From: Phycisphaerae bacterium
GTDB lineage: Bacteria; Planctomycetota; Phycisphaerae; UBA1845
Direction of reading: 5' to 3'
NCBI GenBank assembly: GCA_028289375.1
Contig: JANQQK010000080.1
Location: forward strand, 1 to 64,000
DNA: 64,000 nt
How positions within the stretch are numbered: position 1 is the stretch's first letter; the number at the start of each line of letters is the position of its first letter. The translations under genes were made by a program, and so were the position numbers. Of this stretch, positions 34,861 to 51,222 are shown one piece after another. The notes beneath the pieces were generated by a model. It was not told the DNA's origin. It made no database searches and worked only from the letters and a program-made list of their open reading frames with translations.

Positions 34861-34889
34861 TTGACGGATTGCTTATTTTTGCATACCCA
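34861..34889 (+). promoter_or_regulatory. Possible promoter of the cytochrome oxidase operon
   Basis: TTGACG and TACCCA are separated by 17 bp, about 150 bp upstream of coxB and within a locally A+T-rich patch. The -35 is good and the -10 is poor, so this is only a candidate. No CRP-type palindrome like the one at 51410 was seen here. Confidence 0.3.
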
Positions 34890-35040
34890 ACGCACTATCA
34901 TTTTGCGTGGGGAAGCACGACGTTCCGATCTGATGCTTGCTTCGCGCTGTCGCGAATGTACGCGTGGTTTTTCACAGGGATGATGCATGGTCCTGGCGAG
35001 GTGATGCCATCGCCGTGTGTGATCCGGGAGTGTCTTCCTT

Positions 35041-35823
35041 ATGGACTTTACCCTTCTTGACGGCCTGATGCCCAAGGACATTTCGACGCATGGCTATCAG
35101 ATTGATCGCCTGCTCGAGTATCTGCACTGGTTCATGCTGCTGATCTTCATTGGCTGGGCGATCTTTCTGACCTACACGCTGGTGAAGTTCCGAGCCCGCC
35201 AGGGTCACAAAGCCAGCTACGACGAGATCAAGGCGAAACCGTCGAAGTACGCGGAGATCTTCGTGGTCGCGTTTGAGCTGGTGCTGCTGGTGGGTCTGGC
35301 GGTGCCAACGTTCGCGTACGTGCGAACCGATTTCCCGGGCAAGGACAAGAACCCGGTTGAGATCCGGGTGGTGGCAGAGCAATTCCAGTGGAACATGCAC
35401 TATCCCGGCGAGGACGGCGTGTTCGGCAAGACGCGTCCGGATCTGGTTGCGTCCGACAACCTGGTTGGACTGGACCTGAGTGACCCAGCGGCGGGAGACG
35501 ACTTCGTGGTGCCGACGATGCACGTGCCGGTGGATCGGCCTGTGGTGCTGCAGCTGTCGTCGAAGGATGTAATTCACAGCTTCTTCATTCCGGTGATGCG
35601 GGTGAAGCAGGATGTCATACCGGGTATGTCGATCCCGATGTGGTTTGAAGCCACCGAGACGGGCGAGTATCAGATTGCCTGCGCCCAGTTGTGCGGGAAC
35701 AACCACTTCCGCATGTCGGCCCAGTTCTACGTCGACACGGAGAAGGACTACGCGGCGTTCCTCGCTGAGAACGCACCTGGTGGGGATGACGAAGAGGAAG
35801 AAGAAGAGGAAGAGGACGAATAG
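35041..35823 (+). CDS. coxB: Cytochrome c oxidase subunit II
   Basis: The 260-residue protein has two membrane helices (about residues 28-48 and 72-92) and a periplasmic cupredoxin domain with CuA ligands His179, Cys214, Cys218, His222 and Met225 in VIHSFF and ACAQLCGNNHFRM. The usual Glu between the two Cys is Gln here (CAQLC). No cytochrome c domain is fused. There is no obvious signal peptide. The C-terminus is a run of acidic residues (GGDDEEEEE...), which may guide a basic electron donor. It starts the oxidase operon and is 12 bp before ctaD. Confidence 0.95.
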   Translation: MDFTLLDGLMPKDISTHGYQIDRLLEYLHWFMLLIFIGWAIFLTYTLVKFRARQGHKASYDEIKAKPSKYAEIFVVAFELVLLVGLAVPTFAYVRTDFPGKDKNPVEIRVVAEQFQWNMHYPGEDGVFGKTRPDLVASDNLVGLDLSDPAAGDDFVVPTMHVPVDRPVVLQLSSKDVIHSFFIPVMRVKQDVIPGMSIPMWFEATETGEYQIACAQLCGNNHFRMSAQFYVDTEKDYAAFLAENAPGGDDEEEEEEEEDE

Positions 35824-35835
35824 GAACACTGACTG

Positions 35836-37566
35836 ATGAGTGATCACGAACATCACGATCCCGGCTTCATTCGCAAGTACGTTTTCTCGGTGGACCACAA
35901 GGTCATCGGGATTCAATACACGGTCACATCGCTGCTCTTTCTGCTCTTCGGCTTTGGGCTGATGATGATCATGCGTGCCCAACTTGCCTACCCACAGGGG
36001 GACTTCTCGTTCCTCGAGCGGATCTTCGGTGAGGCGGGTTTCGTGGGCGGTGCGATGCTGCCGGAGTTCTACAACCAGCTTGGGGCGATGCATGGAACGA
36101 TCATGGTGTTCCTTGGCGTCGTGCCGTTGGCGGTGGGCGGATTCGGCAACTACGTGATGCCGCTTCAGATCGGCGCGCCGGACATGGCGTTTCCAAAGCT
36201 CAACATGGCCAGCTACTGGGTCTACCTTCCCGGTGGCTTGATCATGCTCAGCAGCTTTTTCGTTGAGGGTGGTGCGGCTCAGTATGGTTGGACCGCATAC
36301 CCGCCGTTGGCGAACACGCAGCCTGAGTACCTCGGCCAGACGCTGTGGCTGGTCGGCATGGTCTTTCTGATCACGTCGTCGCTGCTGGGATCGGTGAATT
36401 TCATCGTGACGATTGTTCAGCTTCGCGTGAAGGGGCTGTCGTTCTTCCGTCTGCCGTTCTTCGTGTGGGCACAGTTCATCACGTCGTTCTTGCTGTTGCT
36501 CGCGTTTCCGCCGCTTGAGGCTGCGGGCGTGATGCAGTTGATGGACCGCGTGGCGGGGACGAGCTTCTTCATGCCGGACGGTCTGGTGATCGGTGGTCGA
36601 CCTGCCAACGTGGCGGGTGGTGGTAACCCACTGCTGTGGCAGCACCTGTTCTGGTTCCTGGCTCACCCGGAGGTCTACGTGCTGATCCTGCCGGCGTTGG
36701 GCATCGTGGGCGAAGTGATCGCGAACAACACGCGCAAGCCGCTTTGGGGTTACCGCTCGCTGGTCTACTCGGTGATTTTCCTTGGCTTCATGTCGTTCAT
36801 CGTTTGGGCGCACCACATGTTCATGACGGGCATGGGTCAGACGCTGAGCATCTTCTTCCAAACGACGACGATGATCATTTCGATTCCGTCGGTGATCATT
36901 CTGACGGCGTTGATCTTGAGTCTGTGGGGCGGGTCGATCCGCTTCAACGTGCCGATGCTGTTTGCCCTGTCGTTCCTGCCGATGTTCGGCATTGGTGGAC
37001 TGACGGGTCTGCCGCTTGGTTTGGCGGCGTCGGACATTCAGTTGCACGACACCTACTACGTGATTGGTCACTTCCACTTCGTGGTGGCACCGGGCACGCT
37101 GATGGCGCTCTTTGCCGGGATCTACTATTGGTACCCGAAGGCGACTGGTCGCATGATGAACGAGATGCTGGGCAAGCTGCACTGGATCGGGACGCTGGTC
37201 TTTTTGAACGGCGTGTTCATTCCGATGTTCGTGCAGGGTTTGGCCGGCGTGTCGCGACGTCTGTATGACCAGACGTGGTACGAACACGGGAAAGAGGTTC
37301 AGAACTGGACCGTTGCGTCGTCGTGGTCGGCGTGGTTGCTCGGGATTGCCCAGATTCCGTTCATTCTCAACTTCTTCCTGAGCCTTCGGGCGGGCAAGAA
37401 GGTTGGCGAGAATCCGTGGCACGCGACGACGCTCGAGTGGGCAGCGCCATCACCTCCGCCGCACGGCAATTTCACGAGCGAGCCGGTGGTGTATCGCGGT
37501 CCGTACGAGTACAGTGTCCCCGGTGATTCGGAAGACTACAGCCCCCAATTCGTTCAAAAGGCATAG
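35836..37566 (+). CDS. ctaD: Cytochrome c oxidase subunit I
   Basis: The 576-residue haem-copper subunit has twelve expected membrane helices. It holds the low-spin haem ligand His in GAMHGTIMVFL, the CuB-region HPEVYVLILP (His and cross-linked Tyr), the WAHHMFMTG pair, and YYVIGHFHFVV with the two haem His. The His-Pro-Glu-Val-Tyr form marks an A-type oxidase. It reduces O2 to water and pumps protons with subunits II and III encoded on both sides. It is separated from coxB by 12 bp and from ctaE by 24 bp, so they are cotranscribed. Confidence 0.97.
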   Translation: MSDHEHHDPGFIRKYVFSVDHKVIGIQYTVTSLLFLLFGFGLMMIMRAQLAYPQGDFSFLERIFGEAGFVGGAMLPEFYNQLGAMHGTIMVFLGVVPLAVGGFGNYVMPLQIGAPDMAFPKLNMASYWVYLPGGLIMLSSFFVEGGAAQYGWTAYPPLANTQPEYLGQTLWLVGMVFLITSSLLGSVNFIVTIVQLRVKGLSFFRLPFFVWAQFITSFLLLLAFPPLEAAGVMQLMDRVAGTSFFMPDGLVIGGRPANVAGGGNPLLWQHLFWFLAHPEVYVLILPALGIVGEVIANNTRKPLWGYRSLVYSVIFLGFMSFIVWAHHMFMTGMGQTLSIFFQTTTMIISIPSVIILTALILSLWGGSIRFNVPMLFALSFLPMFGIGGLTGLPLGLAASDIQLHDTYYVIGHFHFVVAPGTLMALFAGIYYWYPKATGRMMNEMLGKLHWIGTLVFLNGVFIPMFVQGLAGVSRRLYDQTWYEHGKEVQNWTVASSWSAWLLGIAQIPFILNFFLSLRAGKKVGENPWHATTLEWAAPSPPPHGNFTSEPVVYRGPYEYSVPGDSEDYSPQFVQKA

Positions 37567-37590
37567 GACAGCCCAAAGGAGACCGACAGC

Positions 37591-38448
37591 GTGTCTGCCC
37601 CTGTGATTCGGTACATCGACGAGCCGCACCCGGTAACGGGCGTGACGAACGGCAAGTTCGGGTTGTGGCTCTTCCTGGCGTCGGAGGTGATGCTCTTTGG
37701 AGCACTCTTCTCCTCGTACATTCTTCTGCGTGTTGGCGCGAAGTCTTGGCCTGATGGGTGGGAAAGACTCAACGTGCCGCTCGCCACGGCGAATACCGTC
37801 GTGCTGATCACGTCGAGTGTGACGATGGTGATGGCGTGGGTTGGCTGCAAGCTAAACGATCTCGGCAAATTCCGCTTCTACATGGGAATCACGGTGGCGT
37901 TGTCGTTCGTGTTCCTGGTCATCAAGACGATTGAGTACAAGCCGAAATTCGAGCACTACCAGGTCTATTTCTACGACGGCGCGACCATCCCCGGATACGA
38001 GGAGCTGACCACGATTACAGGCCATCTCGAGGAAGACGATTTCGAGAAGGACTACATCGTCTTTGCTCCGGATAAGAAGCAGCCCAGCCAGACACTGCCT
38101 GACGCGGAGGGACACGGCGATCATGACCACGCCGAGGGCGACCACGATGATCACGGGCATGGCCACTATGCCGATCCGATCCAGATCAACCGTTACGACA
38201 TCAAGCGGCTGACGAATTTCGGGCCGGCCCACAGCAATTTCTACGCGATCTACTTCACGATGACGGGCCTGCACGGGTTGCACGTGATCGGTGGGATCGT
38301 CGTGAACCTGTATTTCCTGTTGTTTGGGGCGGGCATGTTCCGATCGAATATTGCTCAGTTCTCGAACCGCATCGAGTGTGCCGGGTTGTATTGGCACTTT
38401 GTCGATCTGGTCTGGATCTTCCTCTTCCCGTCGATTTATCTGCTGTAG
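37591..38448 (+). CDS. ctaE: Cytochrome c oxidase subunit III with His/Asp-rich insert
   Basis: The 285-residue protein has the subunit III pattern of membrane helices with FGLWLFLASEVMLFGALFSSYI at the start and FTMTGLHGLHVIGGIV and CAGLYWHFVDLVWIFLFP at the end. In the loop at about residues 168-196 is an unusual His/Asp/Gly-rich stretch (GHGDHDHAEGDHDDHGHGH) that could bind metal. The start is GTG at 37591 with AAAGGAG upstream. It follows ctaD by 24 bp. Confidence 0.93.
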   Translation: MSAPVIRYIDEPHPVTGVTNGKFGLWLFLASEVMLFGALFSSYILLRVGAKSWPDGWERLNVPLATANTVVLITSSVTMVMAWVGCKLNDLGKFRFYMGITVALSFVFLVIKTIEYKPKFEHYQVYFYDGATIPGYEELTTITGHLEEDDFEKDYIVFAPDKKQPSQTLPDAEGHGDHDHAEGDHDDHGHGHYADPIQINRYDIKRLTNFGPAHSNFYAIYFTMTGLHGLHVIGGIVVNLYFLLFGAGMFRSNIAQFSNRIECAGLYWHFVDLVWIFLFPSIYLL

Positions 38449-38461
38449 GAGCTTGGTAAGA

Positions 38462-38776
38462 ATGGGTGGCCACACCGTAGAGGAAATCAAAAAGGAAGTA
38501 CGGGTGTACATCACCGTCTTCGTCTCGCTGCTGGTTCTGTCGATCGCGACGGTACTCGTCAGTAAGCTTGACGTGTCCATGACGGTGGCGGTGATCATCG
38601 GCATGGCGATCGCGTCTCTGAAGGGGACGTTGGTGGCGTGCTACTTTATGCACCTGATCTCTGAGAAGAAGGCGATCTACGCCGTGCTGATCATTACGGT
38701 GTTGTTCTTCGCCGTGTTGATGGCGTTGCCTTTGATGGATTACCAGTCCAACGAAGCGTTCACCGGCAGGGCGTAA
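38462..38776 (+). CDS. ctaF: Cytochrome c oxidase subunit IV, prokaryotic type
   Basis: The 104-residue protein has three membrane segments and the prokaryotic COX4 signature KGTLVACYFMHLISEKK. The ATG at 38462 (MGGHTVEEIKKEVRVYI), 13 bp after ctaE, gives the family N-terminus; the upstream frame overlaps ctaE and is not used. The subunit is small and non-catalytic and stabilises the oxidase. Confidence 0.9.
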   Translation: MGGHTVEEIKKEVRVYITVFVSLLVLSIATVLVSKLDVSMTVAVIIGMAIASLKGTLVACYFMHLISEKKAIYAVLIITVLFFAVLMALPLMDYQSNEAFTGRA

Positions 38777-38847
38777 GTCGGGCGACTATAATCGGTTGGC
38801 GTGTGACAACGTCCGTCGAAGGTCCGATTTGAAAGCGGGGCAAGACC

Positions 38848-39054
38848 ATGTCGCTCAAGAAGTTTCACATCATATTCGTGTCGTCCTGCATCGGGCTGTC
38901 GCTGCTGATGGGCGGCTGGGGGATCTTCCGATACCTGAGACAGGCGGATACCGGAGCGTTGACGCTCGGGATCGGTTCGTTCGTCGGCGGGGGACTGCTG
39001 CTGGTATACGGCAACTGGTTCCTGCGCAAGCTCCAGCGCGAGGCGATTGAGTAA
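38848..39054 (+). CDS. Small two-helix membrane protein in the oxidase operon
   Basis: The 68-residue protein has two hydrophobic segments (FHIIFVSSCIGLSLLMGGW and GIGSFVGGGLLLVYGNWFL) joined by a short polar turn. The position, 71 bp after ctaF and 2 bp before the next gene, implies a role in oxidase assembly or stability. A perfect TATAAT hexamer lies at 38787-38792 just upstream, but no fitting -35 was found. I do not recognise a named family. Confidence 0.65.
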   Translation: MSLKKFHIIFVSSCIGLSLLMGGWGIFRYLRQADTGALTLGIGSFVGGGLLLVYGNWFLRKLQREAIE

Positions 39055-39056
39055 CC

Positions 39057-39323
39057 ATGAAACGCACTTCAATTCAAACGGCGTTGGCTGCGGTCGTTGT
39101 GCTCGGTGGATGGGCCGAGTCCGCATTGGCGTGTTCGACCTGCTTCGGTGACCCGGATTCTGATCTGGTGATCGGGGCGAAGGCGGGTGTTGCGGTGATG
39201 GCCGTCGTTGCTTACAGCGTGCTTGGGACCGTTGCGTGGATTGGCCGAGGGTGGTACATCCGCGCGAAAGCGTTGCAGAGCGAGCAGCTCTCCGATGATC
39301 AAAGCGATTCCCGGCGGGATTAA
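39057..39323 (+). CDS. Small secreted or membrane protein with CSTCFGDP motif
   Basis: The 88-residue product has a signal peptide ending in ESALA, immediately followed by CSTCFGDPDS, and one membrane segment (VAVMAVVAYSVLGTVAWIGRGW). The mature protein would thus start with a CxxC pair at the membrane surface. Similar small proteins with CxxCFGDP occur in oxidase operons of planctomycetes and verrucomicrobia, as far as I recall, with no known function. A role in metal delivery or thiol chemistry at the oxidase is an inference. It is the last gene of the operon and its stop overlaps that of ctaB in the shared TTAA. Confidence 0.7.
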   Translation: MKRTSIQTALAAVVVLGGWAESALACSTCFGDPDSDLVIGAKAGVAVMAVVAYSVLGTVAWIGRGWYIRAKALQSEQLSDDQSDSRRD

Positions 39324-40228
39324 CCCGTCGCTTTGTCCACGATCAACATCACAAAGACAAGCGTGAGATAGGTCAACGATGCCCACAGGTGCTGGCGTGC
39401 GCTGTTGTGTGTGCGCAGGCGGGCCATTTCGAGACCGTAGGCGAGGAACGCGCATCCAAGCAGCAACGCGATCGAGTAGTAGATCATTCCGACCATGCCG
39501 AAGTATGTTGGCAACAGCGTGACGGGAACGAGCAGGATGCTGAAGCCCACGACCTCATAGATGAACCGCTTGCCGGTTGGCTGCACGACGGGCAGCACTT
39601 TGAACCCAGCCCGAGCGTAGTCGTCGCGGTAGATCCACGCGATGGCGTGGAAGTGGGGCAGTTGCCAGAAGAACACAATGGCGAACAACAACCACGCGCC
39701 CAGGCCAAGATCGTTGGTGGCGGCAGACCAGCCGATGACTGTCGGCAGTGCGCCAGGAACCGCCCCGATGAGCACAGCCAGTGGGCTGACACGCTTCATC
39801 GGCGTGTAGGCGAGCGTGTAGGAGATCAAGGCGGTCAGTGCGACACCTGCGGCGACGACATTGTTGGCGAGCGCGAGAATCAGAAGACCTGTGATCGCAA
39901 GCGCAAATGCGAACAGCAGCGCCGGCGCGGGCGACATTCGCCCGGCCGCCAAAGGTCTCTGGGCGGTGCGGTCCATAAGGGCGTCGTGGCGACGCTCGAT
40001 CACCTGATTGATGGCATTGCCGGACGCAACGACCAGCGTGGTGCCCAGCATCATGGTGAACAACTGCGTCACCGCTGCCGAATTGAGCACACCGTCGACG
40101 CCAAGGTAGAACCCGACAGCGGACGACAAGACAACAAGGGAAGCCACGCGCAGTTTGGCCAGCGCGACAAAGTCACGCGTCGCGGCGACGGGCGTCGATG
40201 CGTTGGCAGTGTCTACGACGGTACTCAT
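39320..40228 (-). CDS. ctaB: Protohaem IX farnesyltransferase (haem O synthase)
   Basis: The 302-residue UbiA-family enzyme adds a farnesyl group to haem B to make haem O. It has about nine membrane segments, the first Asp-rich motif region NQVIERRHDALMDRTAQRPLAAGR, and the second loop WIYRDDYARAGFKVLPVV. The ATG at 40228 overlaps the ctaA stop as ATGA, so the two are translationally coupled. The longer upstream frame lies inside ctaA and is not used. The product feeds the haem A synthase encoded just before. Confidence 0.94.
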   Translation of the reverse strand: MSTVVDTANASTPVAATRDFVALAKLRVASLVVLSSAVGFYLGVDGVLNSAAVTQLFTMMLGTTLVVASGNAINQVIERRHDALMDRTAQRPLAAGRMSPAPALLFAFALAITGLLILALANNVVAAGVALTALISYTLAYTPMKRVSPLAVLIGAVPGALPTVIGWSAATNDLGLGAWLLFAIVFFWQLPHFHAIAWIYRDDYARAGFKVLPVVQPTGKRFIYEVVGFSILLVPVTLLPTYFGMVGMIYYSIALLLGCAFLAYGLEMARLRTHNSARQHLWASLTYLTLVFVMLIVDKATG

Positions 40229-41169
40229 GCGGCGGTTGCTCCTTCGATCCCAACAGACGACGCTGCGGGAGACTTGGCTGGCTCGCGGAAGATGGAAACC
40301 ACCAAGCCTACCGACAGCCCGAGAATGCCCGAGCCGATGACCACATGCAGCGAGGGCACGAACCATTCGACGAACGTCGCGTTGCGGGCCGCATCATACT
40401 CGAGAATCGACACGTACGCAGCCACGCCAAGCATCAGCTGGAGCATCAGGAATCCGCCAAGCCATTTGGTAAGCCGCAGATGCAGCGGCCGCTCGTGATA
40501 TTGACCGCTGATCCACAGGACCATGCCGCTGATGACGAGCGTGGCCAGACAAGCGCCGATCACGTGGTAGGCGAGACTGTGGCCAAAATGGCGGTAAATC
40601 GCCCCAGCGATGATCTGGCCATAGACTGTCGCGGCTGAGATCACGCTGAATCTACGCAGGCCCGGCGAGAAACCCTGCGGTCCGGGATTCGACTGCCAGA
40701 TGCGGGAGGTCAGCATGACCATCAGCACGGTGCTCGAAAAGAACAAATGCGCGAAACAGCCATGAATGACAGCGAGGTTGATCGAGTCGTTCAGAACGCG
40801 ATAACCGCCCATGACGCCCTGTGCGATAACACCGGCGAGCATCGCCCAGCCAAGGACCCTGACGGCGGTTCGGTTGTCGCGGACTTGCGTGAGCAGTGCG
40901 AGGGCGATCATGACGACGCCGACGAACGCGCCGAGCAGGCGGTGGCTGTGTTCGAAGAAGATGTCCTCGCCGTTGACCCAGTGTCGCGGGTGATACGTGA
41001 TCATGTTCTCACCGTTGGTCGTCGGCCAATCGAGGACGGCCATGCCGGCATCGTTGCTGGTGACCGAACCGCCGACGAAGACGAGGCTGGCGGTGAGGCA
41101 CATCATCGCAATGGCGAGGCGGTGTCTGAGTCTGTCGTGGGGCACGGTGCTGAGTGTGTTGTCGTTCAT
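40225..41169 (-). CDS. ctaA: Haem A synthase (COX15/CtaA)
   Basis: The 314-residue membrane protein has eight predicted helices in two four-helix halves. Haem-ligand His residues are in FFEHSHRLLGAFVG and VIHGCFAHLFFS for the first half and YRHFGHSLAYHVIG and SLHVVIGSGIL for the second. The motif DWPTTNGEN is typical of the family. It oxidises haem O to haem A for the oxidase encoded nearby. The start ATG 41169 is used. It lies 88 bp after the cupredoxin-like gene and overlaps ctaB by four bases. Confidence 0.93.
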   Translation of the reverse strand: MNDNTLSTVPHDRLRHRLAIAMMCLTASLVFVGGSVTSNDAGMAVLDWPTTNGENMITYHPRHWVNGEDIFFEHSHRLLGAFVGVVMIALALLTQVRDNRTAVRVLGWAMLAGVIAQGVMGGYRVLNDSINLAVIHGCFAHLFFSSTVLMVMLTSRIWQSNPGPQGFSPGLRRFSVISAATVYGQIIAGAIYRHFGHSLAYHVIGACLATLVISGMVLWISGQYHERPLHLRLTKWLGGFLMLQLMLGVAAYVSILEYDAARNATFVEWFVPSLHVVIGSGILGLSVGLVVSIFREPAKSPAASSVGIEGATAA

Positions 41170-41257
41170 GGTTCTATCACGGAATTGTAACGCAACTGCG
41201 TCAGGATGACGACGGGGCGAGGGTACTGCGGACCTTCGGGCAGCCACCGCATCGGGC

Positions 41258-42046
41258 CTATTCGGTCACCTGTTCTCGGGCGAACTGGGCATCCGTTCTG
41301 ATCGGCGGATGGTACTTCGGATCGGTCCAGCCATCGCGCGACAGGTACAGCGTCAGAGGCGTTGCTGTGACCGCTGAGGTCCGCACGAGGAATCGCCGCT
41401 CCCCATATTCCTCATGCCAGATCCGCAGCCAGTGCTTTCCGGGCGGGAGATTCACGATCTCGAACATGCCCAAATCGTCCGAAACGGCGAAGAATGGATG
41501 ATCGAAGGCGTGGCACCAGGTGCGTTCCCATGGATGTATGACGCATTTGAGTTGGACTTCTGTTCGCTGCTCCTTGAATTTGAAGTCATCGGACGGGCGA
41601 CGCGTCGGCAGCGGACGCTTCGCGGCGATGCAGCCGGGTGGACGTCGCACCTCGAAGTCGTGCAGGATCGGGTCATCGTACCTGACGGTGACGGTTTGGC
41701 CGGTGCGGACGGCGATGACGTGCTGATCGGGCCAGCATCCCTTGATGCGAACGTTGACCGGGTCTTTGGGAACCGGGAATTGACCGCTGGGCGGATTCTC
41801 GATGTACAGCAGCACGTTCTTCACGGTGCCGTTGGCGTTGATCACGACCGTTTCGCGTTTCGGTGGTTGGCCGTCGCGCAGTTCGAGACATTCCCTGTCC
41901 ATCCGCACTTTCCGGGGGCGGAGGGGATCATCGTCCCAGACGACTTGGCCTCGGATGGATGTGTTCTCGCTGAAGGCGGGCTGGGCGCAAAAAGAAATCG
42001 CCGCCACGAGGGCGACGATTTTGATTGATCTGATTTGTTGACACAT
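41258..42046 (-). CDS. Secreted cupredoxin-like protein (copy 2, Met ligand lost)
   Basis: The 262-residue product has a signal peptide ending CAQPAFS and a body clearly related to the previous gene in transcription order: RGQVVWDDDPLRP, NGTVKNVLLYIENPP, DPILHDFEV, then LKCVIHPWERTWCHAFDHPFFAVSDD and a carboxypeptidase-regulatory-like C-terminal sheet ending LYLSRDGW. The likely copper ligands are His in LHDFEV and Cys/His in CVIHPW; the Met of the paralogue (HPWM) is Glu here. It may be a modified electron-transfer or structural partner. It follows the paralogue by 31 bp. Confidence 0.7.
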   Translation of the reverse strand: MCQQIRSIKIVALVAAISFCAQPAFSENTSIRGQVVWDDDPLRPRKVRMDRECLELRDGQPPKRETVVINANGTVKNVLLYIENPPSGQFPVPKDPVNVRIKGCWPDQHVIAVRTGQTVTVRYDDPILHDFEVRRPPGCIAAKRPLPTRRPSDDFKFKEQRTEVQLKCVIHPWERTWCHAFDHPFFAVSDDLGMFEIVNLPPGKHWLRIWHEEYGERRFLVRTSAVTATPLTLYLSRDGWTDPKYHPPIRTDAQFAREQVTE

Positions 42047-42077
42047 GGGTCGGCCGCGTGCCGCGGGCGGGCGGGTG

Positions 42078-42824
42078 TTACTTCCAGCCGTCGCGCGAGA
42101 GTGTCAGGCCGTCCACTTCCTTCGTTTCGTCCTGGGCGACAGTGACCTCGAATTCCTTCTCGGGATGCTTCTCGTGCCAGGCCACCACGGTATACGTCCC
42201 TGCGGGCAAGCCGGTGATCTCAAACATACCGTCGTCACCGGTGGTATCGAAGAACGGGTGATCCATCACGTGGCACCATGCGGACATCCACGGGTGGACG
42301 TCGCACTTGAACTTGATGGCCAACTCCGCCCTCTTGAACTTCTCGGTGAAAGTCAGATTCTGACGCGGCTGCGACTTGTTGAACTCCTTGTTACGGCGGA
42401 GTCGCGGGTCGGGCAGCGCGTGAATGTTGTGGGCAACCGGGTCGCTGTTCTTGACGAGAATCTCCTGATTCTCCATCACGCCGAAGACGTGCGGGACGTA
42501 CTTGCAGCCGATCTGATCGAGCACGACCGGCTCGGACGGTGTCGTATAGTCCTGCTTGGGCGCGTTCTTGACATACAAGAACACGTTCTGAACGGTGCCG
42601 TTCTTGTTCGTCACAGTCTTTTCGGAACGTGGCACCTTGTTGCCCGCCTTGTCGTGAATGCCCTTGCATTCGGGATTCATCTTGTAGCGCTTGCCCTTGA
42701 AGGGCTTGCCGTCCCAGGCAATCTTGCCCTTGATGGTGGCGCCGTCGGCGAAGGCCGTCGAAACGAACCCACCGGCTGCAATGGCGAAAATGGCGGTCAA
42801 AGCTGCGATGCGTGTCCTTGTCAT
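42078..42824 (-). CDS. Secreted cupredoxin-like protein (copy 1)
   Basis: The 248-residue product has a signal peptide ending STAFA and a two-part body. The first half has KIAWDGKPFKGKRY and VQNVFLYVKNAP; the second has VAHNIHALPD and FKCDVHPWMSAWCHVMDHPFF, which give a plausible type 1 copper site (His, Cys, His, Met). A carboxypeptidase-regulatory-like sheet (DGMFEITGLPAGTYTVVAWHE) follows. The AGGAG 8 bases before ATG 42824 is good. It sits 91 bp after the octahaem cytochrome gene, so a role as mobile or docked electron carrier between the bc complex and the oxidase is reasonable but unproven. Confidence 0.72.
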   Translation of the reverse strand: MTRTRIAALTAIFAIAAGGFVSTAFADGATIKGKIAWDGKPFKGKRYKMNPECKGIHDKAGNKVPRSEKTVTNKNGTVQNVFLYVKNAPKQDYTTPSEPVVLDQIGCKYVPHVFGVMENQEILVKNSDPVAHNIHALPDPRLRRNKEFNKSQPRQNLTFTEKFKRAELAIKFKCDVHPWMSAWCHVMDHPFFDTTGDDGMFEITGLPAGTYTVVAWHEKHPEKEFEVTVAQDETKEVDGLTLSRDGWK

Positions 42825-42915: not shown

Positions 42916-45900
42916 CTATTCCTCTTCTTCGTCCTCTTCTTCCTCTTCCTCTTCGTCGTCTTCCTCCTCTTCCTCCTCATCACCGCCGGAAGAGGCGTCT
43001 CCGGTGCCTCCGACGAGGCCTCCGGGCTGGATCGCGGTGTAATTTCTTGCACCCGCACTATACACAAAGTCCAGCAAGAGGTCGATTTGCTCCTGTCCAG
43101 TGACACCGTACTTGGCTTCCAGCTCGGCACGGAGGTCATCCGGATACTCGGCGAAGGCGCTCCGACCGTTGGGGAACCACTGGGGCATCTTCGTGCCCGG
43201 TTGGAGCCAAGCCGGTTCCTGCAGCCAGCGATCGACCCATTTCTGACTCAGGCGGACGTGCGTGAGGTTCAGATTCGGGGCGGAGGGCTCACTGTTGGAC
43301 CCTTCCATGTTCGGATCGCCCAGCACGTGGCAGGAGAGGCATTTCAACTCGTAGAAGAATTCCTCGCCGAGGGCGAAGCGTTCGTCGTCCACATTCGGAC
43401 GCGGACTTTCGGCGAAGGGGAACTTCACGTCGAAAAGATCCTCGGTGAAGTTGGACTGCTTGACGACCGTGCCGTAGGCGGCGACGAGGTCTTCCTCACT
43501 GTTGCCCGGATCGAGATCGAACGGCAGCATCATGCGGTTGACGACGCAGTAGTCGCCGAGCGTCTCGGATTCGTTGCGGAGACCATCGGTCGTGAACCAC
43601 GGATCGTGATCGTCCATCACGCCATTGGTCTCGGCTGCGTGGCTCTTCTCGTATGAGTGCACGGCTTTGAGGTTTGCTGCGAGCATGGCCGCCTCTTCCT
43701 GAGCGATACCGGCGAAGTAGGAGACCAGCGTGGTGGTCTGTTCGTCGGTCAGGTGGAAGCTCGGCATGCGGATCTTCAACCAAGGCCGCAACATCTCGAC
43801 GTTGTTGAAGAAGCCGTACAGCCACGGGTATTGCACCTTCGAGCCTTCGCCGCGCAACCATGGCGGTGCATTGACTTCATCAAACGTGATGTATCCGTCG
43901 TCGCGGGATGTGTAGTACTGGTGCACCACGGCGACATTGTCCTCGACTTTGTGACAGCCGATGCAGTTCAGCTCGCGTGACAGCACGCGGCCTTGGGCGA
44001 TGGCGCCGTCACGTTCGGCGTCGTAGTCGATCTGGAGCTTCTCGGTCACGCGTGGTGACTTGCGCGACAGCAGGAAGGTCACGAGTGCGTCGGCCTGCTC
44101 CTCGGTGAAGTAGAAGTTGGGCATCTTCACCTTGTCGTATGGCTTCTTGAGCTTTTCACGGTCCCAGATGCGCGGGTTGAGCATCTTGTGCTTGGCGAAT
44201 CCGGCGTGCGAGTGAGTGATCTGCTCGTCGGGGTTGCCGGACTGCGACCAGTGGATCAAATCCTCACGCTCGGATGGATACAGCTTGCCGAATACCTCTG
44301 GCTTCTCTTCGCGCAGGTGGTGATGGGCGTGCGTGTACATACCGAAGTCGAGCTGGCCGAGTGGCTTTTCGCCCCACTTTGAGAGATTCGTTCCCGGCGG
44401 CGGTGAGCCCACAAAGCCGCCGATCGTATGGCAGGCGTAGCAGCCGTAGTGGGCGACCATCTTGTTGCCCAGGTACATCATCTGCTTTTCGTCGACGGAC
44501 ATGCCGGAAAGCAAGGACTCCGCACCATCGTCGCCGAGCGTTCCGGAGATGAAGCCCTTGAGCATGCCGGTCAGCTCGCCGTTCTCATCGTTCATGATCG
44601 CTGTCGCGCGACGAGCGGAATTCTGACTGGCCAGTAGCTGGAATACCAGGTCCTTGGCCATCTGCTGGTGCTCTTCGTCGCGTGGGAACGGCGAGGTCGA
44701 GAATTCCTTATTCTCTTTCAGCGTCATGAGGTACTCGGTGATGTCGGCTGCTTCCTGATCGGTCAGACGCAGCGACGGCATCAGCGTGTTGGGGTTGTAG
44801 TCGGCCGGGTTCTTCAACCAGCCAAACAACCACGCGCGGTTGGATTTCATGCCGACGGCGGAGAGATCCGGGCCGTGGCGTGTGAAAACGGGCTGATCGC
44901 CGATCGACTCGGGATTGAAGACGGTGTCGCGATCGCTCGGCACGTTGTTGATCAGGTGGTAGATGCGCTCGTTGTAGGTCAGGTCGTCGTAGAATGCGTC
45001 TGCGAATTTCTCGGATCGGCCTTCACGGTCCATCAGGTCCTGAACGATCATGTCCTTGCCATATTCGGCAACGTTGGCGTGGCAGCCGAGACAGCCAACC
45101 TCACCAAAGAGCACGCGCCCGTTGTCGGCGTCTCCGACGAGGCCATTCGGCATCGGATCGGGCGTCCAGTCCTGCGAGATGGCGAACAGGTAGTCGGTGA
45201 TGGCTTGAACTTCGGTTTCGGTTCGCAGCACGGGATTCGGGTCCATGTGCGATTTGGAACCAACGCCATTGTTTTCCTGCAGGAAGAAGTGCGGCATCCA
45301 GGTCGAGGGGCGGAACGCTTTCGGGTTGTGTACCCACTGTTCGGTAAAGCCCGGCTCAAGCTTGGAGGCGAGACGCGTGAGGTCGGGACCGACTTTCCGG
45401 CCGCCCTTGGCCTCTTCACCCGTTTCGCCGTTGCCCACGTCGTTGAGCTGATCGACGGCGTGGCAGTTGATGCATCCGGTCCGCGTGAACAGATCGCGAC
45501 CCAGGTTCAGACGCTTGGCTTGCGACTCGCCTTCGTAACCGGCGATGTCGGCGATCTGCGTGTGGCACTTGGCACAGCCTGCTTCAGCGTACTTCGGCGG
45601 AAGCATCGGGCGATCCCAGTGGTGCTCAACAACCTTGAATGTGACATTCGGCACGAAGGCGGCGGTCACGTAGTACTTGTCTTTCCATTCCTTCTCCTGC
45701 TCGTGCGTCACCGGCGAGTGAGCGGCCTGCACAAAATCCGTTTCCTGCGGATTGCCCTCATGGCACACGGTGCAGCCAATCTTGACCGACGGATGCAGGG
45801 AATCGACGTGCACGAAGAGATCGAGGTTCGGATGGGCGATCAGCGGCTGCTGGAGTTTCATCTCCTTCTTGCCGGTGCGATCGAGGAACGTGTTCACGCG

Positions 45901-46923
45901 ATCGAGCAGTTCAACGAAGTAGTCCTTCTGCTGCTCATGCGAAAGCATCGACCAGAATTCCGTGACCTGGCCTGGATCGATGTCCGGCGGGAATTCCATC
46001 TCAAGCTCCGGAACAGCCGGCAGCTCGATCAAGTCCATCTTGCGACGCGCAAGTTCTTCATTGATGGCCGGCAGCGAACGTTCGAACTTGCGGGCGAGAT
46101 TCTCACGCGAGAAGTCCTTGTTCTCGATGGAGACGTGGCAGGTCGTGCATCGATCGGTGGTGTAGGTTTGCAGGTAGTTCAGTTCCTGCCGCACATCCTG
46201 CAGGACGTACTGCTTGACCTCGTGACGCGACTCGGTGCCCTTCGGGGCGGTGAAATCGAGCAGCGGTGCGTTGATGACGGCCTTGGTGATGACGTCGGAG
46301 TAGCGTTGCTCCTTCTTCTGGGCGTCGGTCACGACCTTCATCAGTCCGTCGAGCGCCTTGCCGGCTTCGGAGACGTCCGCGTCGATCGCCTTGATCTGCT
46401 TGCGAATGCTCTTCTGTTCGTCTTCGATCTTGTCCTTGGCGACCTTCAACTCGGCAGCGGTTTTCTCCTGATCCTGCAGCTTGCGCCAAACCTGCTTTGT
46501 ATGGTCATCATCCTTGCCATAGTGCGTCAGCGCCTCTTCATATTCAATCCGCGTGACCTGGACGATGGCGTCGGCGTTGCTGAACGTGATCTTGATGGCG
46601 TCGTGATCGACCTTGAGGTCTGCCAGTTGCTGTTCTTTGTCGGCCTTTTCCTCGAGCCGAACCTCGCGTGACTCCTCGGCTTTGGCGAGCTTCACCTTGG
46701 CTTCTTCGATCTGGTTCTGGAAGTCCTCGGATTGCGTTTGCAGATAGTCGAGGTGGGCCAGTGTCGCCTGGGCGACCATATAGTCATCCTGGTAGCCACG
46801 CCATGGGCGGTCGTAGTCTTCCCAGATCATCCACACCAGACTCGCCAGCAGGAGCACACAACTCACCGCAAACCAGCGGTTGAGCTTGTTCATGTTCCAA
46901 AGTGTTTCGGTCGGTATTGGCAT
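42916..46923 (-). CDS. Octahaem coiled-coil cytochrome c subunit of bc complex
   Basis: The 1,335-residue protein has one N-terminal membrane segment (RWFAVSCVLLLASLVWMIW), a helical coiled-coil region at about residues 62-205 and eight haem c motifs CxxCH at residues 259, 384, 450, 484, 611, 828, 987 and 1195. The last five are each followed by a Met-Pro element (WMPHFF, LMPSL, KMPNFYF, RMPSFHL, KMPQWFP), so they look like class I cytochrome modules; the first three lack it. The C-terminus is strongly acidic (about 20 Glu/Asp in a row). It directly follows the split cytochrome b genes and would replace cytochrome c1. The ATG at 46923 is used; 46893 is an alternative. Confidence 0.9.
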   Translation of the reverse strand: MPIPTETLWNMNKLNRWFAVSCVLLLASLVWMIWEDYDRPWRGYQDDYMVAQATLAHLDYLQTQSEDFQNQIEEAKVKLAKAEESREVRLEEKADKEQQLADLKVDHDAIKITFSNADAIVQVTRIEYEEALTHYGKDDDHTKQVWRKLQDQEKTAAELKVAKDKIEDEQKSIRKQIKAIDADVSEAGKALDGLMKVVTDAQKKEQRYSDVITKAVINAPLLDFTAPKGTESRHEVKQYVLQDVRQELNYLQTYTTDRCTTCHVSIENKDFSRENLARKFERSLPAINEELARRKMDLIELPAVPELEMEFPPDIDPGQVTEFWSMLSHEQQKDYFVELLDRVNTFLDRTGKKEMKLQQPLIAHPNLDLFVHVDSLHPSVKIGCTVCHEGNPQETDFVQAAHSPVTHEQEKEWKDKYYVTAAFVPNVTFKVVEHHWDRPMLPPKYAEAGCAKCHTQIADIAGYEGESQAKRLNLGRDLFTRTGCINCHAVDQLNDVGNGETGEEAKGGRKVGPDLTRLASKLEPGFTEQWVHNPKAFRPSTWMPHFFLQENNGVGSKSHMDPNPVLRTETEVQAITDYLFAISQDWTPDPMPNGLVGDADNGRVLFGEVGCLGCHANVAEYGKDMIVQDLMDREGRSEKFADAFYDDLTYNERIYHLINNVPSDRDTVFNPESIGDQPVFTRHGPDLSAVGMKSNRAWLFGWLKNPADYNPNTLMPSLRLTDQEAADITEYLMTLKENKEFSTSPFPRDEEHQQMAKDLVFQLLASQNSARRATAIMNDENGELTGMLKGFISGTLGDDGAESLLSGMSVDEKQMMYLGNKMVAHYGCYACHTIGGFVGSPPPGTNLSKWGEKPLGQLDFGMYTHAHHHLREEKPEVFGKLYPSEREDLIHWSQSGNPDEQITHSHAGFAKHKMLNPRIWDREKLKKPYDKVKMPNFYFTEEQADALVTFLLSRKSPRVTEKLQIDYDAERDGAIAQGRVLSRELNCIGCHKVEDNVAVVHQYYTSRDDGYITFDEVNAPPWLRGEGSKVQYPWLYGFFNNVEMLRPWLKIRMPSFHLTDEQTTTLVSYFAGIAQEEAAMLAANLKAVHSYEKSHAAETNGVMDDHDPWFTTDGLRNESETLGDYCVVNRMMLPFDLDPGNSEEDLVAAYGTVVKQSNFTEDLFDVKFPFAESPRPNVDDERFALGEEFFYELKCLSCHVLGDPNMEGSNSEPSAPNLNLTHVRLSQKWVDRWLQEPAWLQPGTKMPQWFPNGRSAFAEYPDDLRAELEAKYGVTGQEQIDLLLDFVYSAGARNYTAIQPGGLVGGTGDASSGGDEEEEEEDDEEEEEEEDEEEE

Positions 46924-46946: not shown

Positions 46947-48101
46947 CTAAAAGTTAAGGAACAGTTCCGTGATCGCCACGATGTACTTGAAGTTCCAGCC
47001 CCACCGCAGAACCATCTTGATGGGGATCAACGCCATCCACAAAAACAACTGAACCATCAGGGCGAAACGAATAAAGCCCATCTGATCGGCCAACTTCTTG
47101 AACACGGTGACGCGCAGGATGCCCGGCAGCACAAAGAAGTACCCGATCAACACGGCGATGCCCGGCAACTCACGATACACGTAGTGTGGCAGGCCCCAAC
47201 GCCCTTCCGTCGGAATCCCCTGGTTCAGCCACTGAACCCAGAAAATCTCCGACAGGTTGATATTCAACAATGCGACAGGCCTGTGCGCATCCCAGTACTC
47301 GTAAGGCCCGAAGAAGTTCCAGTTCGGACCACGCAGGAACGTGCCGAAGACGATCAGCACCAGCCACAGGATCACGAATCCGATCATGAACATCGTGACC
47401 GCGAACTTACGCTCCTTGAACGTGTAGTAACCGTTCCCACGCGGGTTCTTGTCGATAAACGGAATCGCCGCCAGTCCGACAATCACCAACCCCGGAAGCA
47501 GCACGCCCGCAATCCACGGATCGAAATAGACCAGCAGTTCCTGCAGACCCAGGAAGTACCACGGGGCCTTGGCTGGGTTGGGTGCGAGACTTGGATCGGC
47601 TGGCTGCTCGAGCGGTGCACGCAGCACAACGGCCCAGACCATCAGGAACACGGTGCACAGCACCATGGCGATCAGTTCGGTGTACACAAGGTCAGGCCAA
47701 ACGAGCACCTTGTCGTCCGAACCCGCCTCCATGAGCGGTTTGCCCTCTTCCATGGCTTGGTCGTTGAGCGCGGACTGCCGGAATCCCAGCCAGATGAAGA
47801 ACCCGAACAGGTAGAACATCAGCGTGATCGGAATGTTGTCCGGCTTGATGATGATCGACAGGAAATCGGGATCGAATGCGGACAGGCTGTACGCGATCGT
47901 GAACGCGACCAGCACAAAGATGCCAACGGCGGGCTTGGTCAGGGTTCGGTAGCCGGCGAGGAAGACGCCGGTTCCAGCACAAGACAGGATGAAGAACCAG
48001 TGCGGCTGGCAAATCCAATTGATGCCGCTCTTGATGGCTTCGACCCCGCCTGCGGCGAGGAGAGATTCAGTGGCCAGGATGCTGTTCATCACTTCAACCA
48101 T
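46947..48101 (-). CDS. Cytochrome b, C-terminal-half subunit
   Basis: The 384-residue membrane protein holds the subunit-IV-like core with PAKAPWYFLGLQELLVYFDPW, the Qo-site region in the PEWY place, and RGNGYYTFKERK. It is longer than a normal subunit IV, with extra membrane segments at both ends: about four before the core (LVAFTIAYSLSAFDPDF, ITLMFYLFGFFIWLGF and others) and two at the C-terminus. It pairs with the cytochrome b N-half encoded 44 bp upstream; the haem-ligand His are in that partner. The octahaem cytochrome gene begins 23 bp downstream. Confidence 0.88.
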   Translation of the reverse strand: MVEVMNSILATESLLAAGGVEAIKSGINWICQPHWFFILSCAGTGVFLAGYRTLTKPAVGIFVLVAFTIAYSLSAFDPDFLSIIIKPDNIPITLMFYLFGFFIWLGFRQSALNDQAMEEGKPLMEAGSDDKVLVWPDLVYTELIAMVLCTVFLMVWAVVLRAPLEQPADPSLAPNPAKAPWYFLGLQELLVYFDPWIAGVLLPGLVIVGLAAIPFIDKNPRGNGYYTFKERKFAVTMFMIGFVILWLVLIVFGTFLRGPNWNFFGPYEYWDAHRPVALLNINLSEIFWVQWLNQGIPTEGRWGLPHYVYRELPGIAVLIGYFFVLPGILRVTVFKKLADQMGFIRFALMVQLFLWMALIPIKMVLRWGWNFKYIVAITELFLNF

Positions 48102-48145: not shown

Positions 48146-48931
48146 TTACAGCGGACCACTGATGCCGCCATCCTTGCGAATCCGCCAGAAGTGCACGGCG
48201 ATCAGCACGCCGACAACCAGCGGAATAAAAATGCAGTGCAGTACATAGAAGCGCAAAAGCGCGTTGGGCCCGACGAACGTTCCCGCCAACAGGCCAAACC
48301 GTGCATCGTCGCCCGCGTGCACCAGTGGCACGCCGCCGATCTGCACGAGTTGCGCGAGCGGACCCTCATGACCGAGGACCGGTGTCGCGCGGGCCATGTT
48401 CGACCCCACCGCAATGGCCCACATCGCCAACTGATCCCACGGCAGCAGATAACCGGTGAACGATAGCAGCAATGTCAGCACGAGCAGGATGACACCCACC
48501 ACCCAGTTGAACTCACGCGGCGGTTTGTAGCTGCCTGTCAGGAACACGCGCAGCATGTGCAGCCAGATGGCAATCACCATCGCGTGTGCACCCCAACGGT
48601 GCATCTCGCGGAGCAGGCCAAGCGTCACGTGCGCCCGCAGACCCTGAATGTCGAAATAGGCGTACTCGACGGTGGGCCTGTAGTAGAACATCAAGAGCAC
48701 GCCCGTCACCACCTCAACAAGGAACAGGAAGAACGTCAGCCCCCCCATGCACCACGTGAAGCTCAGACGAATACCACTCTTGCGAATCGCCACCGGATGG
48801 AGGTGCAGAAACACATTGCTCAACACCGCCATTGCACGCGTGCGGCGATCACGGGGCACACCATGTCGAAATACGCTGCCCCAGATCTGCCCTTCGCGGA
48901 CCCAGTCACCAAATCGGCTGAATACACTCAT
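48146..48931 (-). CDS. Cytochrome b, N-terminal-half subunit
   Basis: The 261-residue subunit matches the b6-type N-half of cytochrome b. Two haem-ligand His pairs sit in [20 protein letters not shown] and in [23 protein letters not shown]. The [13 protein letters not shown] loop and [13 protein letters not shown] of the Qo side are present. It oxidises quinol with the Rieske subunit. The gene lies between the ferredoxin-Rieske fusion (86 bp upstream) and the C-half subunit (44 bp downstream), all on the minus strand. Confidence 0.94.
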
Positions 48932-49017: not shown

Positions 49018-50094
49018 TTAGACCGACAGGAAGCTGTCGGGGTTGTCCCACTCGCCTTTTTCGTATTGATACTTCTTGCTGCGATCGACGATGACCGTTC
49101 CATCGACCACGGCAATCTTGAAACGCTCCAGGGGACGCGGCGCCGGACCCTCGAAATTGATCCCGTTCGCGTAGAAACCGCTGCCATGACACGGGCACTT
49201 GAATTTCCGGTCATTTGGCAGCCAGTTCGGAATGCACCCCAGGTGCGTACAGATGATGTTCAAAGCAGCCAGCTTCTCATCCGTGCGGATGATCCACACG
49301 CCTTCCGGCTTAAAGTCTTCGTTGACCTCACCGGGTTGCAGGCCTGCATACTGCGTAAGCGAGCCGACGCGAATCTTCGGGTCCGGCTCCTCGAGCACAT
49401 TCGGCATCAGGAATCGCTGAAACGCTGCGCCGGAAATTCCCGCGGTTCCCGCGAACGCGGCCCATCCGATGGCTGCGGCCGACCCCGCAAGCATGCCACG
49501 CCGCGAAATGCCGGCGTCTTTTTCCTTGGTGGCCTGCATGACCTTCGCTGTCCGAGCGTCGGGCGGCAGATCGTCGGCAGGTTTGTTGCTCCACTTCCGC
49601 GCTTCGGCGGAACCGTCGCCTGCGTCGCGGCCAGCCATGCCACCACGGGCCGTCGCGGCACGAAGCAGCGCCTGAATGGCAGGGTCCGGGTCACCGGCGA
49701 CCGATACAGCGGGCGCCTTGGCTGGTGCTTTCGCAGCCGCTGCGGGCGCGGGCTCGGCTGGTGCAGGTGCCGCCGGAGCTGCGGGTGCAGCCGCGGCAGG
49801 AGCGGGTGCGGGTTCAGCGGCCGCAGGTGCCGGTGCATCAGCGGCAGGCGCCGGGGCGTCGGCGACTTCTTCGGACACAACATCAAATTTGATGACGTCA
49901 ACCGGGCATTCCTCTGCCGCTTCAATGATCTCATCGGTGCGCGGCTTGCAGAAGTCCACCGCCAAAGCTGCCGGACGGATCACACAGGTTTCTTCCAGAA
50001 CCTCAAACACATCGGGCGCCGCGTTCTCGCACGCATCGCATACGATACAACCCGGTTCGATCCAGACCTTCGTGACCTGTTCCTTAACGGCCAT
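49018..50094 (-). CDS. Ferredoxin-Rieske iron-sulfur fusion protein
   Basis: The 358-residue protein has an N-terminal ferredoxin-like domain with Cys16, Cys19, Cys22 (GCIVCDACENA) and Cys63 before Pro (EECPVDVIKFD), the ligand set of one 4Fe-4S cluster. A Pro/Ala-rich linker spans about residues 75-135. Then comes an internal twin-Arg motif and hydrophobic stretch (SRRGMLAGSAAAIGWAAFAG, from residue 197) and a Rieske domain with CTHLGC (282-287) and CPCHG (300-304). Rieske proteins of bc complexes are exported and anchored by just such a Tat segment at their N-terminus; here it is preceded by 196 residues that would remain in the cytoplasm. It is the second gene of the bc operon. Confidence 0.9.
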   Translation of the reverse strand: MAVKEQVTKVWIEPGCIVCDACENAAPDVFEVLEETCVIRPAALAVDFCKPRTDEIIEAAEECPVDVIKFDVVSEEVADAPAPAADAPAPAAAEPAPAPAAAAPAAPAAPAPAEPAPAAAAKAPAKAPAVSVAGDPDPAIQALLRAATARGGMAGRDAGDGSAEARKWSNKPADDLPPDARTAKVMQATKEKDAGISRRGMLAGSAAAIGWAAFAGTAGISGAAFQRFLMPNVLEEPDPKIRVGSLTQYAGLQPGEVNEDFKPEGVWIIRTDEKLAALNIICTHLGCIPNWLPNDRKFKCPCHGSGFYANGINFEGPAPRPLERFKIAVVDGTVIVDRSKKYQYEKGEWDNPDSFLSV

Positions 50095-50142
50095 GACTTG
50101 GTTCCCTTGCTCTTAACTCATGTACTCGGATCAGCTGCAATC

Positions 50143-51222
50143 TTACGCATTGTTCTGCTCACGAACACGACGCACCGCCTCACGAACTTCGGGCGATTCA
50201 TCTTCCGTCAGCAGCCCCATCTGCGTCGTAATCTCATCATCCATCACGTGGGCAGCCGCTTCCACTGCGGCCACAAGATACCGCGAAATCGTAAGCGGCG
50301 GTAGCGGATATTCAACGAAACTGCCCGGCTGCGTTTCGCGACGCATGCGGACATCGTTTTCCCAGTAACTGCGCGTCAGCATGTCGAGAAGCATCGGCTT
50401 GCTCTTGAGACTTCCAAGCCGTGCGATCGCCAACGTTGCGTTCCACTGAACCTCGCGATCGTCGGTCAAGTACGCCTTCAACAGAGACGCCAGCGCGACG
50501 GGATCACCACGCTCGGCGATCTGCGAGACGGCAGCACAAGCCTGCATTTGAATGGCGGAATCCGAATCCTCCAGCTTCATCAGCAGCTTCGGAAGCGCGC
50601 GATCGATTTCCGGAAGATGACGCATATCAGCCAATGATGCGAGCGCCTGCCCGCGGGTCAGTGGATCTCCGGATTCCAGGTAGGGCAGCAACGCGTCGAT
50701 CGCTTCGGGCGACTCGGTCATCGCGGCGGCCTTCATGACGAAATGTCGCTTCTTGAGCACCCAGTCGCTCTCAGTTTCCCGCTGCACGTCGTCGGAATCG
50801 AGAATCGTGCACAGACGCGTCGTGATGTCCTCCAGATCCTCGTCACTCAGCTGCTCTCGCTCCTTCTTGCCGAGCCGCAACGCCAACTCGCGACTCGCCT
50901 GCCATAGCTCCTTCTCATTGGGCAGCAGAACGCCGACTGTCTTCTCCCCGGATCGGGTCTCCAGTTTTGTGAGCAGATCGTCGATCGACTGCTCCTGATC
51001 CGTTGCGATCGATCCGAACAGCAGGACAACAACCACGGCGCAGCCCACGATCAGACTGACGATGACCAGAGGGACGGCGAACAGCCTGGCCATCAGCGAC
51101 GTCGTCATCGGCTCGGCGTGGTCCGGCTCCGTTGAGACCTCCTCGACCGTCGGTGCGTCCGCCTGCGGTGCGACGTCGGTGTGGTCTGCAGTTTCGAGAG
51201 ATTCTGACTGTTGTTGATTCAT
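50143..51222 (-). CDS. Membrane-anchored HEAT-repeat protein
   Basis: The 359-residue product starts with a polar acidic stretch of about 40 residues, then a membrane segment (VPLVIVSLIVGCAVVVVLLFG, about residues 50-70), then helical pairs of HEAT type (PEAIDALLPYLESGDPLTRGQALASLADM, SDSAIQMQACAAVSQIAERG, DREVQWNATLAIARLG). It is the first gene of the bc operon, 48 bp before the ferredoxin-Rieske gene. No haem or metal motif is present. A role in holding subunits together is an inference. A short hairpin lies just before its weak ribosome binding site. Confidence 0.8.
   Translation of the reverse strand: MNQQQSESLETADHTDVAPQADAPTVEEVSTEPDHAEPMTTSLMARLFAVPLVIVSLIVGCAVVVVLLFGSIATDQEQSIDDLLTKLETRSGEKTVGVLLPNEKELWQASRELALRLGKKEREQLSDEDLEDITTRLCTILDSDDVQRETESDWVLKKRHFVMKAAAMTESPEAIDALLPYLESGDPLTRGQALASLADMRHLPEIDRALPKLLMKLEDSDSAIQMQACAAVSQIAERGDPVALASLLKAYLTDDREVQWNATLAIARLGSLKSKPMLLDMLTRSYWENDVRMRRETQPGSFVEYPLPPLTISRYLVAAVEAAAHVMDDEITTQMGLLTEDESPEVREAVRRVREQNNA

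Follow-up and report, generated by a model that had tools for sequence, protein, structure and literature searches.

A ferredoxin–Rieske fusion in a b6f-like operon of Phycisphaerae and its possible electron partners

A long-standing problem in photosynthesis research is whether a b6f-type complex can take up electrons straight from ferredoxin (Fd) at its heme cn. A 64,000-nucleotide stretch of a Phycisphaerae genome (positions 1 to 64,000 of contig JANQQK010000080.1, assembly GCA_028289375.1; hereafter, the window) carries a b6f-like operon whose Rieske subunit bears a fused ferredoxin, and raises the question of what that ferredoxin does there and with which partner it might exchange electrons. 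With the ferredoxin tethered to the complex, the Fd-to-heme-cn question could be tested in one purified enzyme.

Architecture and predicted topology of the fusion protein

The fusion gene reads from 50094 to 49018 on the minus strand, from ATG to stop, and encodes 358 amino acids. A preliminary description, which had proposed a ferredoxin fused to a Rieske protein with an internal Tat-type anchor at 49018-50094, was exact in its coordinates (strand, minus), and the proposed architecture was borne out by Pfam matches to both domains (Fer4_13, residues 14-68, E = 1.5e-5; Rieske, residues 263-324, E = 9.9e-9), by the SRRGML motif at residues 197-202 and by a hydrophobic segment directly after it. 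We consider this architecture, which recurs in relatives, well supported. The protein and its parts, from the N terminus, are:

49018..50094, minus: ferredoxin-linker-Tat anchor-Rieske fusion protein, 358 aa
49870..50094, minus: [4Fe-4S] ferredoxin domain, residues 1-75 (Fer4_13, alignment, PDB sequence matches, AlphaFold2, Foldseek)
49687..49869, minus: Ala/Pro-rich linker, residues 76-136, predicted to be disordered (sequence, low conservation and pLDDT 34-48 in AlphaFold2 models of 13 fusions)
49504..49686, minus: conserved pre-anchor segment, residues 137-197, with no role assigned (helix 138-149, DPxIQALLRAATARGG, and LPPDAR motif; further modelled helices 163-169 and 178-190; invariant in the alignment, D137, L143, L144, R150-G152, L176 and P177)
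49423..49503, minus: twin-arginine motif and predicted transmembrane anchor, residues 198-224 (RR in 38 of 38 fusions; hydropathy peak 202-220; helix 198-220 in the 13 models)
49021..49422, minus: Rieske [2Fe-2S] domain, residues 225-358 (PF00355; CTHLGC...CPCHGS; closest solved structure, 9rk3)

The N-terminal domain appears to be a single-cluster ferredoxin of the Fer4_13 type, for which binding of a low-potential [4Fe-4S] cluster is inferred from sequence and structural modelling. Its Fer4_13 match (26.0 bits) lies above the curated cut-off (24.5), and the Fd profile matches the P. furiosus and T. maritima ferredoxins by sequence, with the four predicted ligand cysteines (C16, C19, C22 and C63) aligned. 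Modelled alone with AlphaFold2, the domain adopts a ferredoxin fold (mean pLDDT 89.8), and the best Foldseek matches of this model in the PDB were small ferredoxins (for example, D. africanus FdI and those of B. thermoproteolyticus and P. furiosus; E-values of about 0.004-0.02 over 78 residues). The domain is strongly acidic (net charge -11). It shares its ligand pattern and fold with the Fer4_13 ferredoxins of P. furiosus, T. maritima and B. thermoproteolyticus, but differs from them in being membrane-tethered and in carrying an invariant fifth cysteine, C37. This residue (window 49984-49986), to which no role could be assigned, occurs without exception in the 38 fused ferredoxins and also in their nearest stand-alone relatives.

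At the C-terminal end, the Rieske cluster motifs (CTHxGC and CPCHGS) matched in 36 of the 38 fusions; of the other two, one ends at a contig edge and one (L133) reads GPCHGS. The second-sphere serine within CPCHGS, S305, is present, and the closest solved Rieske protein is Kustd1480 of Kuenenia (9rk3; phmmer E = 3e-39).

The twin arginines (RR198-199) are followed by the sole clear hydrophobic segment of the protein (residues 202-220, weakly hydrophobic), and TatC is present in the genome. An N-terminal export signal, which would have refuted a cytoplasmic ferredoxin, was looked for by hydropathy (not with a dedicated signal-peptide predictor), and no such signal or strongly hydrophobic N-terminal stretch was visible. 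With no N-terminal signal, one Tat-type anchor and the Rieske domain outside, the ferredoxin would thus be a cytoplasmic domain attached through a flexible arm of 100-130 residues. The sequence, with its invariant RR, and the models support the placement put forward earlier (a cytoplasmic ferredoxin and a periplasmic Rieske cluster; that is, N-in/C-out), so that a single polypeptide probably handles electrons on either side of the membrane; topology was not measured, and the cleavage state of the putative Tat-type Rieske anchor is inferred, not observed.

Some elements of this design were already known. Actinobacterial Rieske proteins likewise have an internal Tat motif, but they have three or five transmembrane helices and depend on Sec-Tat cooperation (PMC5449189, PMC7317946), whereas the fusion has one anchor after a soluble cytoplasmic redox domain and, with its one hydrophobic segment, does not meet the actinobacterial criterion of three or more transmembrane helices. 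Other two-sided Fe-S proteins have also been predicted: the MLMS-1 polyferredoxin, a NapH-NapG fusion, resembles the present protein in being a predicted two-sided Fe-S chain with an internal Tat motif, but is unrelated, polytopic and not a bc-complex subunit (PMC5449189). In the open literature we found no earlier account of a bc complex with a ferredoxin-Rieske fusion; subscription papers were not covered, and priority is not certain.

Distribution and relatives of the fusion

A search for the same fusion in other planctomycetes, proposed in the preliminary description as a check, was strongly positive. Full-length fusions (54-79% identity) were recovered from about 20 of 40 relatives and from 19 of 150 genomes of the class, and the pooled set comprised 38 distinct intact fusions and one frameshifted one. 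The C-x2-C-x2-C...CP pattern, the fifth cysteine and the RR pair are kept in all 38 intact fusions, in every one of which the ferredoxin and the RR pair are 104-133 residues apart. The fusion is more than chance and is no misassembly. Among the matches listed on named contigs, fusions came only from records named Planctomycetota, Phycisphaerae, Phycisphaeraceae or Planctomycetaceae; among the fusions found, all carriers are Planctomycetota and, wherever named to class, Phycisphaerae. A 59-genome sample of the phylum held no fusion besides the window's own, phages gave no match to the fusion, and plasmids matched the Rieske part only, with no full-length match among the matches listed.

The nearest unfused Rieske proteins among the matches listed were about 45-57% identical over the Rieske part and came from Omnitrophota, Neomarinimicrobiota/Fidelibacterota, Acidobacteriota, Gemmatimonadota, Latescibacterota, Bdellovibrionota (Bacteriovoracaceae), Myxococcota and other planctomycetes, as well as from single metagenome-assembled genomes (MAGs) labelled Spirochaetota and Campylobacterota. 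In a tree of 119 Rieske sequences, the fused proteins fall together on one side of a single branch, a placement compatible with a single origin of the fusion; the exact branch is only weakly supported because a long-branched unfused protein (L023) joins the fused group.

The Rieske proteins of Planctomycetia are unfused and have long Ala/Pro-rich N-terminal extensions without a ferredoxin. These predicted cytoplasmic extensions (in L096, L098, L104, L111, L118 and others) span about 150-450 residues and contain repeats like KKMSVAEILAAARA, with no redox domain. The possibility that the pre-anchor helix of the fusion is homologous to the MSVAEILAAARA-type repeats of such extensions was rejected, as profile scores did not exceed those of shuffled sequence.

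The operon and comparable complexes

The genes of the operon are ordered HEAT protein, fusion, cytochrome b, subunit-IV (SUIV)-like protein and a 1335-aa cytochrome c. Besides the fusion, they are:

50143..51222, minus: HEAT-repeat protein (a single hydrophobic segment at the N terminus); its gene opens the conserved block
48146..48931, minus: b6-type cytochrome b, 261 aa (heme-b histidines H111, H125, H232 and H247; C61; invariant H43 and H45)
46947..48101, minus: subunit-IV/cytochrome b C-terminal-like membrane protein, 384 aa (PF00032; conserved order)
42916..46923, minus: giant multihaem cytochrome c, 1335 aa, 8 CXXCH (coiled-coil region, acidic C-terminal tail)

The order Rieske, cytochrome b, SUIV-like protein and multihaem cytochrome is common to fused and unfused relatives, and in almost every fused locus of the order the fusion gene comes after that of the HEAT protein. 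The operon contains no cytochrome f; in its place stands the 1335-aa cytochrome c, described as octahaem-type from its 8 CXXCH motifs. No gene for an NAD(P) oxidoreductase subunit was found among the operon genes, to which this search was confined. The tail of the giant cytochrome is almost pure Glu/Asp, and its long coiled-coil-like region gave a weak SMC-type match.

Column conservation in cytochrome b was compared between 34 fused and 79 unfused relatives. C61, which we take to be the b6 heme-cn cysteine position (matched by eye to a b6 sequence, without a computed alignment), is present in 100% of the fused and 96% of the unfused relatives. Fused relatives have Ala, and most unfused ones Lys/Arg, at position 48, which precedes the first membrane helix and probably lies on the cytoplasmic face; a basic docking patch there is therefore not favoured. 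We also considered the group-specific residues of cytochrome b as a docking site and rejected them: the columns are scattered over the protein without a clear patch and are confounded by clade.

We identify the complex as a b6f-like menaquinol:cytochrome c oxidoreductase of the Kustd1480-1485 kind, the quinone type being inferred. In Kustd1480-1485 of Kuenenia, too, a Rieske protein is combined with a b6-like cytochrome b, a protein resembling SUIV and a multihaem cytochrome that is very large and has long helices (PMC12954380). The Kuenenia complex differs in having a separate subunit, Kustd1483, an n-side NAD(P) oxidoreductase whose several [4Fe-4S] clusters reach towards heme cn in AlphaFold3 models (PMC12954380), where the present complex has a single-cluster ferredoxin fused to the Rieske subunit; n-side Fe-S wiring thus has a precedent in complexes of this type. 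For the Kuenenia complexes, an additional heme b at the dimer interface has been proposed, with a histidine close to the beginning of cytochrome b as its ligand (PMC12954380); H43/H45 may be comparable, but the residue is unaligned and this is only a lead.

The operon is accompanied, a few kilobases past the gene for the multihaem cytochrome, by a cytochrome oxidase cluster (34090-41172; COX II, I, III and IV on the plus strand; SCO, CtaA and UbiA-type genes on the minus strand), from which we infer that the complex most likely feeds cytochrome oxidase. Between the cytochrome and oxidase genes lie two adjacent open reading frames (41261-42824, minus) with apparent N-terminal signal sequences and weak carboxypeptidase-regulatory-like matches.

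A second comparison is with the b6f complex of chloroplasts and cyanobacteria, which shares the split cytochrome b and the heme-cn cysteine, as well as a proposed contact with ferredoxin at heme cn on the n-side. For plants and algae, heme cn has been proposed as the conduit of Fd electrons into the plastoquinone pool in cyclic flow, and an n-side Fd(-FNR) docking site has been predicted by modelling (PMC9342900). There, however, a [2Fe-2S] Fd and FNR are separate proteins whose use of b6f is unsettled (PMC9342900), whereas here a [4Fe-4S] Fd is covalently attached and cytochrome f is absent.

Possible routes of electrons to and from the ferredoxin

The preliminary description had further suggested that the ferredoxin lets a cytoplasmic donor or acceptor communicate with the bc complex. 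Such contact is an inference, which we refine to the heme cn/Qn site on the n-side of a b6f-like complex, by analogy the likely and obvious electron partner for Fd on the cytoplasmic side. That this two-sided Rieske protein makes complex III a ferredoxin-linked enzyme, the Q-cycle complex either taking electrons directly from its own covalently tethered cytoplasmic Fd or sending bifurcated ones to it via heme cn, seems to us an even proposition. Such a complex would amount to a natural, hard-wired form of the ferredoxin-b6f route debated for cyclic electron flow, but found in respiring bacteria.

As to direction, which is inferred, the explanation we favour, tentatively and with a little less than even confidence, is that the tethered n-side Fd exchanges electrons with heme cn/Qn, most likely from reduced ferredoxin to menaquinone. 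The Rieske subunit of a b6f-like complex would have gained a single-cluster [4Fe-4S] ferredoxin at its N terminus; the Rieske domain would be exported by Tat and work in the periplasm as usual, while the Fd would stay in the cytoplasm as a swinging arm, collect electrons (most likely from 2-oxoacid:ferredoxin oxidoreductases), dock on the n-side of its own complex and reduce heme cn or menaquinone at the Qn site. Besides oxidising quinol, the complex would then act as a hard-wired ferredoxin:menaquinone reductase. This direction is favoured because heme cn is the proposed Fd entry in plant and algal b6f, with a modelled n-side site. We also count for it the precedent of n-side Fe-S wiring in Kustd1480-1485; the conservation of the fusion, with its four Fd cysteines and RR, in different families and orders of the class, and its apparently single origin on the Rieske tree, where the exact branch is weakly supported; the presence of C61 in every fused relative and the retention, judged from alignment, of all four heme-b histidines; and the acidic Fd together with the ferredoxin complement of the cell. 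In the latter, five POR_N matches were found in the genome, four of which were counted as 2-oxoacid:ferredoxin oxidoreductase-type, with no match to RnfC and no second Fer4_13 ferredoxin in the genome. A stand-alone Fer4_13 ferredoxin was found in 0 of 13 fused versus 6 of 11 unfused genomes of the order (counts of short frames over the cut-off; Fisher p = 0.003, not corrected for kinship), as if the tethered Fd had replaced it. The strong form of this argument, that the fused Fd is the cell's only ferredoxin, was rejected: it is the only Fer4_13 match, yet the genome also has two small Fer4_7 ferredoxin-like frames (105 and 121 aa).

Against ferredoxin-to-menaquinone transfer stand the absence of biochemical data, the Ala at position 48 of cytochrome b in fused relatives, the possibility that the 105- and 121-aa frames could serve the 2-oxoacid oxidoreductases, and the energy that would be wasted in a step without pumping if a ferredoxin-using complex I exists. 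A further point comes from a relative in the same family (G012) in which the DAGK gene, which precedes the operon in several relatives, is directly followed by a stand-alone Fd of the fused subfamily (L034, G012:C59; 7715-8092 and 8114-9016). This Fd is intact (52% identity, four cysteines), and the HEAT-Rieske-cytochrome b-SUIV-cytochrome c block was not found beside DAGK there, which suggests that the Fd outlived loss of the complex; Fd can thus have uses beyond it. A Fd gene adjoining the SUIV gene in another relative (G037, L033) was considered as a 'split' form and rejected, as it is of a divergent Fd type without the fifth cysteine.

The tethered Fd may feed ferredoxin electrons straight into respiration, joining carbon metabolism (through 2-oxoacid:ferredoxin oxidoreductases) with the respiratory chain in a class that has been little studied, and the fusion bears on the proposal that anammox relatives make NAD(P)H with such complexes.

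The main rival reverses the flow: quinol oxidation would be bifurcated, with the high-potential electron reaching the oxidase via the Rieske cluster and the octahaem cytochrome, and its low-potential counterpart passing via hemes b and cn to reduce the tethered Fd. Bifurcation has been proposed for the closest characterised complex, Kustd1480-1485, whose Rieske potential is high and whose authors favour NAD(P)H production by this means (PMC12954380); S305 is retained here, and the nearby cytochrome oxidase would provide a strong pull. Nevertheless, a low-potential ferredoxin is harder to reduce than NAD(P)+, the genome already has ferredoxin-reducing 2-oxoacid oxidoreductase-type genes, and a low heme-b potential has not been shown, and we regard this reading as unlikely.

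Two lesser rivals dispense with electron transfer between the tethered Fd and the complex. In the first, which we judge distinctly unlikely, the Fd has no electron partner and acts as a redox or oxygen sensor, as an aid to cluster assembly or as a folded brake on the n-side of the anchor during Tat insertion. Neither the invariant C37 nor the conserved non-Fd segment at 137-197 has an assigned role, and the Fd-less Ala/Pro-rich extensions on the same subunit in Planctomycetia indicate that cytoplasmic extensions may have a use of their own; however, deep divergence has left all four cluster ligands and the ferredoxin fold intact, and the same complex occurs without Fd in many phyla.

The second, more doubtful again, holds that the Fd is released by linker proteolysis or through an internal start, giving a soluble ferredoxin and an ordinary Rieske protein. 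The linker is disordered and 60 residues long, internal ATGs occur before the anchor (residues 153 and 186), and fused genomes usually lack a stand-alone Fer4_13 ferredoxin: besides the counts for the order given above, it was found in 1 of 19 fused versus about 44 of 131 unfused genomes of the class (again counts of short frames over the cut-off). The stand-alone Fd surviving beside DAGK in G012, where the operon was not found, points the same way. Yet the two ATGs are not conserved in the alignment, and internal starts giving a short Rieske protein were rejected as a candidate; moreover, the Fd-to-RR spacing is kept in all fusions, and a free Fd under selection would be more simply encoded separately.

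That the fusion is an artefact of annotation or assembly, or that its Fd domain has decayed, can practically be discounted: one relative (L097) has its Fd and Rieske parts in different frames, but 38 distinct intact fusions come from many independent genomes, and non-synonymous divergence from a congener (79% identity) is low on the Fd domain (pN 0.12, versus 0.10 on the Rieske domain; two congeners compared, with synonymous sites near saturation). In the exceptional relative, the MAG PNC21 (L097, 5947-7114), the two parts lie in overlapping frames, through either a sequencing frameshift or a real split. Long antisense open reading frames opposite real genes in the window (44668-46671 and 49066-50304, both plus) are probably non-coding.
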